From: Asaia bogorensis
Lineage (GTDB): Bacteria > Pseudomonadota > Alphaproteobacteria > Acetobacterales > Acetobacteraceae
Reading direction: 5' to 3'
Assembly (NCBI RefSeq): GCF_900465345.1
Contig: NZ_UEGO01000031.1
Location: forward strand, 124,001 to 188,000
DNA length: 64,000 nucleotides
Of this stretch, positions 31,402 to 36,424 are shown one piece after another. The position numbers were made by a program, and so were the translations under genes. A model generated the notes under the pieces. The model had not been told where the DNA came from. It worked only from the letters and a program-made list of their open reading frames with translations, and made no database searches. Each line of letters begins with the position of its first letter. The stretch's first letter is position 1.

Positions 31402-32307
31402 ATGTCACGCCGCCTGTTCCGCGCCTCTCTTCTGCTTCTTGCCCTTGCCCCGCTTCTGGCCGCCCCGGCCGATGCGCGCCCCGGTGGCGGTCGCTCCATG
31501 GGAAGCCGGGGAAGCCGCACCTATTCTCCCCCGCCCATGACCCAGACCGCGCCTTATCAGGCCCGGCCCATGGAGCGAAGCTATGCCCCTTCATCCCCAT
31601 CCCCGGGCTATAGCAACCCGATGCAGCGCCCAATGGGCCAGCCTTACGGCTTTGCACAGCGCCGCCCCTTCATGACCGGCTTTGTGGGTGGCCTGCTGGG
31701 TGCCGGCCTGTTCGGCATGCTGTCAGGGCACGGTTTTCTTGGTGGTATCGGCGGGGGACTCTCCTTCCTCGGCCTGCTGTTCCAGATTGCGCTGTTCGGT
31801 TTCATTATCGTGATGGTGCTGCGCTGGCTCGGCAATCGTCGCCAGGGAGGTGTCAGCACCCCTCAGAGCCCCGGCTTTTCCGGCGGTGCCGGGGCGCCGG
31901 CCGTGACGCTCAACAACAACGATTACCAGAACTTCCAGCGCCTCCTGCTCGATATCCAGGCTGCCTGGAGTGCCCAGAACATGCGGGCGCTCTCCAGCAT
32001 GGCCACACCAGAGATGGTGTCATATTTCAATGAGCAGCTGGCCGATTACGCGAGCCGTGGTGCACGCAATATCGTATCGGACGTGCAGTTCATGCGCGGT
32101 GATCTTTCGGAAGCATGGCGTGAGGGCAACCTGACCTATGCCACCGTTGCCATGCAGTATTCGCTGTATGACGTCACAACCGATCAGCTCGGCAACGTCA
32201 TTGATGGCAGCAAAACAGAGCGTCAGGTGGTGACAGAGCTCTGGACCTTCGTGCGCGCCGATGGACGCGGCAACTGGGTGCTTTCCGCCATTCAGCAGGT
32301 TGGCTGA
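31402..32307 (+). CDS. Exported Tim44-like domain membrane protein
   Basis: A 301-residue protein with AAGGAG ahead of ATG 31402. A signal-like N-terminus (about residues 1-26, ending PADA) is followed by a low-complexity stretch rich in G, S, P, M and R (27-80). Two glycine-rich membrane segments follow (about 92-112 and 118-146). The C-terminal Tim44-like domain (about 165-300) includes YQNFQRLLLDIQAAWSAQNMRALSSMATPEM. The layout matches proteobacterial Tim44-domain proteins of unknown function. It is the second Tim44-fold protein in the window and probably belongs with the M16-pmbA operon. Confidence 0.85.
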   Translation: MSRRLFRASLLLLALAPLLAAPADARPGGGRSMGSRGSRTYSPPPMTQTAPYQARPMERSYAPSSPSPGYSNPMQRPMGQPYGFAQRRPFMTGFVGGLLGAGLFGMLSGHGFLGGIGGGLSFLGLLFQIALFGFIIVMVLRWLGNRRQGGVSTPQSPGFSGGAGAPAVTLNNNDYQNFQRLLLDIQAAWSAQNMRALSSMATPEMVSYFNEQLADYASRGARNIVSDVQFMRGDLSEAWREGNLTYATVAMQYSLYDVTTDQLGNVIDGSKTERQVVTELWTFVRADGRGNWVLSAIQQVG

Positions 32308-33085: not shown

Positions 33086-33196
33086 TCAGAGCCGCAGATA
33101 GGTCAGGGCGAAAAGAGAGATCATGACCAGTGACAGACCACCCAGCAGGCCCATGATCCGCCCCTGACGGCGCTCGGCGAGTTCGTTTTTCATCAT
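33086..33196 (-). CDS. CoxF-like 36-residue membrane peptide
   Basis: A tiny gene whose ATG overlaps the ctaB stop by four bases (ATGA). The product starts MMKNELAERRQGR, with a charged N-terminus, followed by one hydrophobic helix (about residues 14-33) ending YLRL. Small proteins of this shape follow ctaB in many alphaproteobacterial cytochrome oxidase operons (CoxF-like). The placement, overlap and architecture support a real coding sequence. In those operons ctaG and ctaE normally follow; here neither is recognisable downstream. Confidence 0.65.
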   Translation of the reverse strand: MMKNELAERRQGRIMGLLGGLSLVMISLFALTYLRL

Positions 33197-34134
33197 GGAA
33201 ACAACACCCGATCAATCAGCAGGGCTGAAAACAGGAAAAACAGATACGCCAGCGAGTACCGGAAGGCATAGCGGGCAGGCTTGTCAGCCGTCAGGCTCAC
33301 CCCGGTCTCGTCTTGTTTGTCGAGCAGAACACGCAAGGCAAATCCCACAAAGCCCAGCCCGAGAACCGCGGCGCTCACCGTGTAGATCAATCCGCAAAGA
33401 TGCAGAAAGGACGGCACCAGAGACACAGCCAGCAGGATCAGCGTGTAAACGAAGACATTCCAGCGCGTATGACGAGCCCCCTTCACCACGGGCAGCATCG
33501 GGATACCCGCCTTGGTGTAATCCTTGCATGCATAGAGCGAGAGCGACCAGAAATGGGGTGGCGTCCACAGGAACACGATGGCAAACATCACCACCGGCAA
33601 TACGCTCATGGAGCCTGTTGCGGCGGCCCAGCCGATCATGGGCGGAAAGGCGCCGGCTGCTCCGCCAATCACAATATTCTGCGGTGTGCTCCGCTTTAGC
33701 CACATGGTGTAGATGACGGCATAGAAGAAAATCGAAAACGCGAGAATACCCGCAGCAAGGGCATTGCTCGCAAGCCAGAGCAGAGCCACCGAAGCCAGCG
33801 ACAGGACGACGCCATAGATAAGGGCGCCATCGGCATCCATACGGGAGTCAGGAATGGGCCTCACGGACGTTCGCTTCATGATCGCGTCAATATCGCGGTC
33901 GTACCACATATTGATGGCACCGGCCGCCCCTGCCCCGACGCATATGCAAAGCATATCGATCAGACCGAGCGGAACCGAAGGCCAAGTCGGTGCCACGGCC
34001 ATGCCCGCCACACCCGTAAACACGACCAGCGAGATGACACGCGGCTTCAGCAGTGCAAGCCAGTCCTTGAGCGTCGCCCCTTGAAGGCGATCAAACGCCG
34101 GCTCGACATGCGGCAATGATTGTGAGGCACTCAT
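33193..34134 (-). CDS. ctaB: Protohaem IX farnesyltransferase (haem O synthase)
   Basis: Adds a farnesyl group to protohaem to make haem O, in the inner membrane. The first prenyl-diphosphate motif NMWYDRDIDAIMKRT lies near residue 94. The second region YACKDYTKAGIPMLPVVKG lies near 205, and the LLKPRVISLVVFTG start is typical. 313 residues with about nine helices is normal. Its ATG overlaps the stop of the COX1-like gene (ATGA), and the CoxF-like gene overlaps its own stop. Haem O would serve a bo3-type ubiquinol oxidase; with the local oxidase degenerate this is its likely remaining role. Confidence 0.95.
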   Translation of the reverse strand: MSASQSLPHVEPAFDRLQGATLKDWLALLKPRVISLVVFTGVAGMAVAPTWPSVPLGLIDMLCICVGAGAAGAINMWYDRDIDAIMKRTSVRPIPDSRMDADGALIYGVVLSLASVALLWLASNALAAGILAFSIFFYAVIYTMWLKRSTPQNIVIGGAAGAFPPMIGWAAATGSMSVLPVVMFAIVFLWTPPHFWSLSLYACKDYTKAGIPMLPVVKGARHTRWNVFVYTLILLAVSLVPSFLHLCGLIYTVSAAVLGLGFVGFALRVLLDKQDETGVSLTADKPARYAFRYSLAYLFFLFSALLIDRVLFP

Positions 34135-35324
34135 GAAAGATCGACTTTCGCAGGCTCACGCAATGGCATGATCAGTCTGACGCCCAGACAGGCGACGCAG
34201 CAAAGTGAGACCATCATGCCGGCCTCGCCGATATGACGCAGCATGGGCAGAAACGGGATCATGGCCAGCACCGCTATACCCATCGAAACAAGATGCAGAC
34301 GACCGAGCCAGAGTGGTGCGGCCAAATCGCCCAGCTGGGCCTGCCAGCGATAATAGCAGCCAAACAACGCGAAAACCGCGCCAAACAGCATGGCGGAATG
34401 AAAGGCCTCCGGACGCGCGGGGAAAAGATAGAGCGCCCAACCTGCCGAGAGCAGAAGCAGCGCCGGAAAGCTCCAGGAGAGCGCGTAGGTCATGGTGAAG
34501 CTGCGACGCCACAAAGAAGCGCAGATCAGCCCCATGATTCCGAAACAAGGGAGGGCAACCCCTGCCCCCAGAAGCCATGCCCCGGAAAGCCCCGGCACTA
34601 TAACTCCATGCGCCCAGACCACCGATACACCCAGCGTCGGTACCGCCATAAGCAGTGGCAGAACGATCTTGGCACGGGTTGAATGGAAAGAAACGAGGTT
34701 TGCAATCGCCCCGAGGGCCAGTTGCATGACAAGAGCCAGCACGGGAATCTGGATACGACCCAGCCATACGCCAGCGACAATCTGTGTATCCCCGCCCGCC
34801 ACAAGGTCATGGCTCAGGCCGGCCAGCACGACAGGGACGAGGACGACCAGGCCAAGTGACGCCAGAAGTTGTGACCAGGTAAAGGGCGACAGATCACGAA
34901 AGCGTACGACGCGACATTCGAGACATTTGACGATGGTCGACAGCGCCAGCAATACGACACCAATCGACCAAAGCCCCATCGAGACGGCAAACAGGCCAGG
35001 TCGTGATGCACCGCCAAGCGCGCAGAACGCCCCGAGGAACAAGGCGACTAGAGCCATGCGGTCAAAACGGACCATCAGGGACGGAAGGGATGTCAGTTCA
35101 CCCGGCAGGATCAATCGCCCCATACCGCCGAGAAAGGCCGGGATCAGGACAAAAAGATCAAGCAGCAATCCATGCCCCAGCGCATGGGCGGGGCCTGTAC
35201 CTTGGGAGACAAATCCGAGGAAACCACCTGCGAGACCGCAAAAAAGGGCAAGGGCCAGGAAAGCGGCCCCATCGGCACGCAACGCCAGACCCTCGCGGCG
35301 TCTCGAAATCGGCAACTGTAGCAA
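34131..35324 (-). CDS. Degenerate cytochrome oxidase subunit I-like protein, active site lost
   Basis: A 397-residue protein with about eleven hydrophobic helices that aligns by eye with haem-copper oxidase subunit I. HGLLLDLFVLIPAFLGGMGRL (from H51) matches the helix II haem-a ligand region. GGDTQIVAGVWLGRIQIP matches the GHPEVY helix, but the CuB histidine is R190 and the cross-linked tyrosine is P194. VVWAHG (239-240) has one of two CuB histidines. PEAFHSAMLFGAVFALF matches the HFHY helix, with A307 replacing the haem-a3 ligand and H309 retained. It lies directly before ctaB, where ctaD belongs. The TTG start at 35324 follows AAGGA. Catalysis of oxygen reduction is very unlikely; alternative families (NnrS-like) were considered. 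Confidence 0.7.
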   Translation of the reverse strand: MLQLPISRRREGLALRADGAAFLALALFCGLAGGFLGFVSQGTGPAHALGHGLLLDLFVLIPAFLGGMGRLILPGELTSLPSLMVRFDRMALVALFLGAFCALGGASRPGLFAVSMGLWSIGVVLLALSTIVKCLECRVVRFRDLSPFTWSQLLASLGLVVLVPVVLAGLSHDLVAGGDTQIVAGVWLGRIQIPVLALVMQLALGAIANLVSFHSTRAKIVLPLLMAVPTLGVSVVWAHGVIVPGLSGAWLLGAGVALPCFGIMGLICASLWRRSFTMTYALSWSFPALLLLSAGWALYLFPARPEAFHSAMLFGAVFALFGCYYRWQAQLGDLAAPLWLGRLHLVSMGIAVLAMIPFLPMLRHIGEAGMMVSLCCVACLGVRLIMPLREPAKVDLS

Positions 35325-35426
35325 GACCCGTTCCTTATTCCGTCCTGGGGGTCCTCATGCCATCAGCATCGCTATGGGACCCTGAGATCAAGGCCAGTCT
35401 GGTATGTTTTGTCGGGCACAAACGTG

Positions 35427-36149
35427 TCAGGCAACCAGGGCCGTCTCTTCCTTACTATCCTTCTCGAGCGGCAATGTCACGAGTGTAAACAACCCGGCAG
35501 GCGGAACCGGTGTGATGGTTGCACGGCCCAGATCTTCCGGAGGCAACAGGGATTCCATGGCAAAATCCGGATGCCAGCCGAGCGAGCGTGATGCACGGGC
35601 CATACCGCGCTCAACCGCCAGCCTGACACCGCCCGTCGCGAGGAAATGATTGACGAACAGGATATGTCCGCCAGGCTTTACCACCCGCTTGAGTTCGCCC
35701 AGAAGACGACGAGGGCTTGGCACGACCGATGCTACGAACATGGCCACAGCAATGTCGAAGCTTCCCGCCTCGAAGGTCGTTGCCTCTGCATCCATTTCAA
35801 GCAAGTCATCGACGTTGCCGAGCTGCTGGTTGATGACACGCTGACGGGCGCGTTCGAGCATGGCCTCGGAAAGATCAATTCCGGTGATATGCTTGTCGCG
35901 GCTGTAATGCGGCAGGGCGAGCCCCGTCCCGACACCGACCTCAAGAACACGCTGACCAGGCAACGCATTGACAGCCGCCACGGCACGGCGACGGCCAAAT
36001 GCCGATATGCCACCAAAGACGGAATCATACACCCTCGCCCAGCGGCGATAAGCGGCGCGTACTGCGTCCGCATCCAGCGCAGAGCGCGGGCGAGGATGCG
36101 TGTCGTCAAAGGAGACGGTTGGGTCGATCAAGGGGTCCGGTCGTGTCAT
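35427..36149 (-). CDS. PmtA-like class I methyltransferase
   Basis: AdoMet-dependent methyltransferase resembling the Rhodobacter-type phosphatidylethanolamine N-methyltransferase. The start is ATG 36149, giving 240 residues. The pre-domain RAAYRRWARVYDSVFGG near 28 is typical of the PmtA/UbiE group. The AdoMet motif VLEVGVGTGLALPHY lies near 68, and GIDLSEAMLERAR and VKPGGHILFVNHF follow. Phosphatidylcholine synthesis is plausible in this lineage, but ubiquinone-type methylation cannot be excluded. It is upstream of and in line with the COX1-like gene, about 100 bp away. Confidence 0.75.
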   Translation of the reverse strand: MTRPDPLIDPTVSFDDTHPRPRSALDADAVRAAYRRWARVYDSVFGGISAFGRRRAVAAVNALPGQRVLEVGVGTGLALPHYSRDKHITGIDLSEAMLERARQRVINQQLGNVDDLLEMDAEATTFEAGSFDIAVAMFVASVVPSPRRLLGELKRVVKPGGHILFVNHFLATGGVRLAVERGMARASRSLGWHPDFAMESLLPPEDLGRATITPVPPAGLFTLVTLPLEKDSKEETALVA

Positions 36150-36424
36150 CAGGCTTCGTTCGTCTGGTCGCACAAAATCATTGGTTTTGTCCTGATACCT
36201 GTCCCGGGACCCGCGCGCGAGACCTGGGCGATACAAAATTGTCGCCCGACCGCAGCCAGTGTGGCAGGCATCGAACAGAGTCTTCACCCTTAGCGTATAT
36301 CGCCAGAACTGGCGAGGGGCGGTTTGCATTTCGTCACGCCGCGCGCCTAGAAGATAGGCAATAACAACGGGAAACATCCTGAGCCCTGGCTATCTGCGAG
36401 CGCCCGAAAAGAAGAGTTCAAGCC

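Follow-up and report, generated by a model that had tools for sequence, protein, structure and literature searches.

It is not yet settled how terminal oxidases receive haem O and haem A in their subunit I (PMC5249081). Surf1, a haem A chaperone of COX assembly, lies in the membrane and is believed to hold haem on its way from the synthase to subunit I (PMC9145763). In Acetobacter, a "deranged COX1-like protein" adjoining ctaB was reported (Matsutani 2014, as cited in PMC10715153); that 2023 paper states that all metal-cofactor-binding residues have been lost and proposes a structural role, with retention alongside ctaB. Genes ctaB and ctaD are also listed in A. pasteurianus (PMC5158111). In A. 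bogorensis, bo3 is the sole terminal oxidase, and neither cyoE nor surf1 lies beside the cyo operons (PMC4596401).

We analysed a 64,000-nucleotide stretch of Asaia bogorensis DNA (the window) containing a gene for a COX1-like protein, here called the pseudo-oxidase, which is the same gene, in the same place and the same clade, as the Acetobacter gene described in PMC10715153. Compared with CtaD (aa3, PF00115), the pseudo-oxidase shares whole-length homology, 12 transmembrane helices, the low-spin His pair, synteny with ctaB, and, in its long forms, a C-terminal motif; however, it has no CuB centre, cross-linked Tyr, haem a3 His, or K-path Lys, and the MPRR segment and subunit II docking loops are deleted. 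CyoB, subunit I of the bo3 oxidase, has the same fold and low-spin haem b ligands, but it keeps the binuclear centre and the quinol-site residues, and it is encoded by two separate genes in the same genome. Surf1 is unrelated to the pseudo-oxidase in fold and family, although we propose it as a functional analogue. The gene itself is already published; the invariance of its low-spin pair and the shift in constraint described below are apparently new, as a literature search limited to open papers found no report of either.

Descent from cytochrome c oxidase subunit I

A single pseudo-oxidase sequence gave no Pfam (PF00115) or NCBIfam subunit I match up to E=1, and a PF00115 search of the whole genome matched just two CyoB-like genes, missing the pseudo-oxidase. 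Using phmmer, we aligned aa3 COX1 from the PDB to the single sequence with E=0.001; against a profile of 41 family members, COX1 from the PDB matched with E=4.5e-76, and it was this family profile that was needed to show the homology. The AlphaFold (AF2) model, which does not include haem, has twelve helices and a pLDDT of 88.4, and every Foldseek match to it at E<=0.001 was COX1. In VIA comparisons, the AF2 model aligned to R. sphaeroides aa3 subunit I over 368 residues (Z=33.3, 3.2 A), to bo3 with a Z of 30.6, and to cbb3 with a Z of about 28. The earlier note had read the protein as subunit I-like from its sequence and had named profile search and structure prediction as checks, with NnrS as an example of a different fold; both checks returned COX1, and NnrS or another fold is not supported. 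The pseudo-oxidase is a descendant of CtaD and, by its transmembrane-core homology, 12-helix COX1 fold, and low-spin haem axial His pair, a member by descent of the haem-copper oxidase superfamily.

Table 1. Features of the pseudo-oxidase locus in window coordinates, with residue counts across the family
Feature	Position	Strand	Detail
COX1/CtaD-derived pseudo-oxidase	34131..35324	-	397 aa, open frame, TTG start, 12 predicted TM helices
ctaB (haem O synthase)	33193..34134	-	directly downstream of pseudo-oxidase; TIGR01473 E=1.8e-94
ATGA, pseudo-oxidase stop / ctaB start overlap	34131..34134	-	sequence
AAGGAA, ribosome-binding-like	35331..35336	-	sequence; 6 nt before TTG
PmtA-like methyltransferase gene	35427..36377	-	upstream of pseudo-oxidase; NF045882 E=1.6e-42, below cut-off
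Tim44-domain protein gene	31402..32307	+	PF04280; convergent with ctaB
H51 codon, low-spin haem ligand, helix II	35172..35174	-	His 80/80; CAT 48 / CAC 32
H309 codon, low-spin haem ligand, helix X	34398..34400	-	His 79/79; CAT 66 / CAC 13
I193 codon, first CuB His position, lost	34746..34748	-	His 0/80
A197 codon, cross-linked Tyr position, lost	34734..34736	-	Tyr 0/80
H239 and G240 codons, CuB His-His pair positions	34605..34610	-	His 33/80 and 7/80
A307 codon, haem a3 His position	34404..34406	-	His 2/80

Using ctaB as bait, we collected 80 named loci. In all 41 loci of the acetic acid bacteria type (hereafter acetous loci), ctaB is preceded by a family frame of about 390-480 aa; these loci come from Asaia, Swaminathania, Gluconobacter, Tanticharoenia, Bombella, Saccharibacter, Neokomagataea, Acetobacter, Gluconacetobacter, Novacetimonas, Komagataeibacter, and Commensalibacter, plus two more loci. 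In outgroup Acetobacteraceae (Acidocella, Acidiphilium, Rhodopila, Acidisphaera, Roseomonas, Elioraea, and Lichenicoccus), an ordinary ctaD of about 530-555 aa stands at the same place before ctaB. The suggestion that the Asaia gene sits where ctaD belongs, overlapping ctaB, was thereby borne out, both by the ATGA overlap in the window and by the presence of a real ctaD at that position in Acidocella, Rhodopila, Roseomonas, Elioraea, and Lichenicoccus. A degenerate-looking outgroup CtaD (locus L140) was provisionally attributed to a wrong reading frame. The other cta genes of the outgroup loci, whose identity there was read from position and sequence, are gone from the acetous loci.

Adjacency of the family gene to ctaB is conserved in all 49 untruncated loci from a genome search as well as in the 41 named acetous loci, with an overlap or a short gap between the two genes that reaches about 30 nt in many genera. 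In the window, the ATGA overlap is compatible with possible translational coupling of the pseudo-oxidase and ctaB. Named Asaia records hold a homologue 70% identical to the window protein, and divergence within the family is high, with identity down to 20-30%. The C-terminal end of CtaD, NYWGxGARTLEW, survives as the motif NYWGxGAxTxEW in the long forms of Gluconacetobacter and Commensalibacter. In the tree, the family is monophyletic (79 tips, local support 1.0) and sister to Lichenicoccus CtaD. Our best explanation is that the oxygen-reducing centre was lost in the ancestor of acetic acid bacteria, while the fold and the bis-His low-spin haem site were kept.

Haem ligands and catalytic residues

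We counted residues in 80 distinct family proteins; for H309 the sample is 79, as one protein runs off its contig. By alignment, H51 and H309 correspond to the low-spin haem ligands of COX1, and histidine is present at both positions in every protein covered (Table 1). There has been time enough for change, because the His codons at both positions vary synonymously between CAT and CAC. The binuclear centre, in contrast, is gone: the three CuB histidines, cross-linked Tyr, and high-spin haem His that make a functional oxygen reductase are not kept as a set in the pseudo-oxidase. The earlier note had recognized this loss and had placed both low-spin ligands, the CuB His-His pair (H239-G240), and the haem a3 His position (A307) where our alignment puts them; however, its assignments of R190 to a CuB His and of P194 to the Tyr were each three residues off, the correct positions being I193 and A197. 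Residue P194 is instead the Pro of HPEVY, which is kept in 46 of 50 sequences.

Real CtaD has 174 conserved columns, and only a handful of these exceed 95% in the family (W150, W237, G205, H309, Y325, W327, and H51); H51 is absent from the CtaD conserved-column list only because five CtaD sequences lack a residue there. The MPRR propionate arginines are deleted in 78 of 79 family members, and Arg52/54 in helix I is kept in six and lost in 73 of 79. With the propionate pair and Arg52/54 lost, any haem would be held differently than in CtaD. The K-path lysine is lost as well, and so are the periplasmic loops, which in aa3 oxidases dock subunit II. Consistent with a protein lacking a subunit II partner of its own, both COX2-family matches in the genome adjoin CyoB genes.

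The residues associated with bo3-type quinol binding (R71, D75, H98, and Q101 in E. coli numbering, the register of R71 and D75 being approximate) are not retained as a set, and the columns of H98 and Q101 are not conserved in the family. Together with the frequent loss of Arg52/54, this speaks against the quinol-binding function that had been considered for the protein. Constraint almost as strong as on the haem ligands is seen at three further residues, W150 and W237 (each 80/80) and H344 (45/50).

Judging from the alignment, the statement that all cofactor ligands are lost, as it appears in PMC10715153, is wrong for the low-spin pair, which is invariant in 80 proteins, Acetobacter included.

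Purifying selection across the clade

In all 51 genomes examined, from 20 genera, the matched stretch is free of stop codons, and the window gene is itself open over all 397 codons, with a TTG start behind a ribosome-binding-like sequence, as had been noted. Using a simple Nei-Gojobori estimator limited to pairs with dS of 0.08-0.7, we obtained a median dN/dS of 0.169 over 59 close congeneric pairs; the value for the window gene and its nearest relative (locus L054) was 0.079, and that for ctaB, used as a control, was 0.042. Two other values were set aside: an all-pair median of 0.65 is a saturation artefact, and the saturated pairs were dropped; a value of 0.29 for outgroup ctaD is unreliable as a control, coming from distant GC-rich pairs, and ctaB was used instead. 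Thus, neither the broken frames nor the dN/dS near 1 of a decaying pseudogene were found; the pseudo-oxidase is under purifying selection and intact throughout the clade.

The distribution of site rates differs from that expected of an oxidase. In the ranking of 378 sites, H51 and H309 take places 5 and 6, and the catalytic positions places 121-312. The slowest helices are the two bearing the kept ligands, II and X (rates of 0.56 and 0.64), and helices VI, VII, and VIII, which together with X are the most conserved in CtaD, are relaxed in the family (0.92-1.22). By these rates, constraint has left the oxygen site and now lies on the low-spin haem site. The conserved ligands and the slow evolution of their helices suggest that the protein was retained for haem handling rather than being in decay, and the earlier proposal that it had been kept, for which dN/dS across related genomes was named as a check, agrees with values far below 1, intact frames across the clade, and the inverted constraint.

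Haem supply and candidate functions

The Asaia genome containing the window (3.38 Mb) has two cyoA/cyoB sets, and searches of it for CtaA, Cox11/CtaG, and Surf1 gave no matches. If CtaA is truly absent, no haem A is made, and the retained site could take haem b or haem O only. Since bo3 is the sole oxidase and no cyoE lies beside the cyo operons in A. bogorensis, we infer that CtaB must supply its haem O. Surf1 (PF02104) matches were found in 173 of the 249 genomes of the bacterial family and in none of the 51 with the pseudo-oxidase; E. coli, a control that makes bo3, also gave no Surf1 match. The mutual exclusion is suggestive only; one loss across the clade could account for it, as could a replacement of Surf1 function. 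Five complete small genomes (G029, G066, G070, G116, and G210) have neither a ctaB orthologue nor a family member, and in the genus of G210 the remaining members have retained both genes. Two of the five, G070 and G210, gave no PF00115 match and appear to be without any haem-copper oxidase.

From the kept and lost residues, we infer that the pseudo-oxidase holds one low-spin haem, either protohaem b or haem O. Less firmly, it may work in partnership with CtaB, because the two proteins are made together. Tentatively, the reading that we favour, although we would not call it probable outright, is that the pseudo-oxidase keeps one bis-His haem and works with CtaB in supplying haem O to bo3. By this reading, a CtaD descendant that lost its oxygen chemistry but kept the fold and the low-spin bis-His haem site would, being made with CtaB, accept or present haem, with haem b as the substrate of the synthase and haem O as its product, and haem from the pair would then be loaded into the bo3 ubiquinol oxidase. 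Such a role would correspond to the job thought to be done by Surf1 and CtaA for haem A in ordinary cytochrome c oxidase assembly. A bolder version, which we regard as unlikely, is that a single event in the ancestor of acetic acid bacteria made a catalytic oxidase subunit a dedicated haem carrier, which takes up haem b or haem O at CtaB in the old low-spin site and passes it to bo3, replacing chaperoning of the Surf1 type in a clade without Surf1.

The constraint on the axial ligands and their helices, the most constrained part of the protein, would be equally expected of a stand-alone membrane b-type cytochrome whose bis-His haem passes electrons, for example from ubiquinol or a periplasmic dehydrogenase to another carrier, with no particular tie to CtaB. 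Many periplasmic dehydrogenases do feed quinone in acetic acid bacteria (PMC4596401). However, with H98 and Q101 of the bo3 quinol site not conserved, with no obvious electron exit now that the subunit II docking loops and the second haem are gone, and with a gene that remains beside ctaB and disappears when ctaB does, we consider this role unlikely. The published proposal for Acetobacter, as given in PMC10715153, would make the protein a haem-free scaffold that stabilizes CtaB. The adjacency of the CtaD-derived gene and ctaB, their ATGA coupling, and the kept fold all fit a scaffold, but it leaves unexplained why the axial histidines are invariant in 80 proteins when the other metal and active-site ligands were lost, and its published premise, the loss of all cofactor ligands, does not hold for the family sequences; we judge it about as unlikely as the stand-alone cytochrome, these two being the chief rivals of the favoured reading.

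Loss of the propionate arginines and of those contacting the formyl group alters the pocket, and the two histidines might now bind a lipid, quinone, or metal instead of haem. Histidines facing each other from helices II and X are nevertheless the classic low-spin haem site of the superfamily, and those helices are the ones kept, which makes another ligand improbable. We give least credence to slow decay of a useless gene shielded only by translational coupling to ctaB, such that the frame but not the sequence would be needed. The ATGA overlap in the window, the overlaps or short gaps elsewhere, the disappearance of the neighbouring cta genes of the outgroup loci, and the high divergence of the family are what decay would leave, yet dN/dS is 0.08-0.2 in close pairs, invariant residues are spread along the chain, and in the many genera with a gap of up to about 30 nt, coupling would need no frame.

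If the favoured link to haem O supply is correct, a ctaB-linked, clade-wide protein that keeps only the low-spin site would offer a natural experiment on the haem delivery step. The family also shows that constraint in a respiratory enzyme can pass to the second haem site as the catalytic centre is lost, and it corrects the claim, as worded in PMC10715153, that the protein lost every cofactor ligand.

Adjacency to ctaB says little about partnership, because the ctaD-ctaB order is ancestral and other neighbours are conserved too: genes of the PmtA-like family and a glutathione-synthetase-like gene (gshB) each occur near the locus in all 41 acetous loci, so the whole neighbourhood is conserved. 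The true start of the PmtA-like gene in the window may be internal to the frame in Table 1. On the other side of the locus, where the Tim44-domain gene converges with ctaB, a gene of the same family is present in 34 of the 41 acetous loci.
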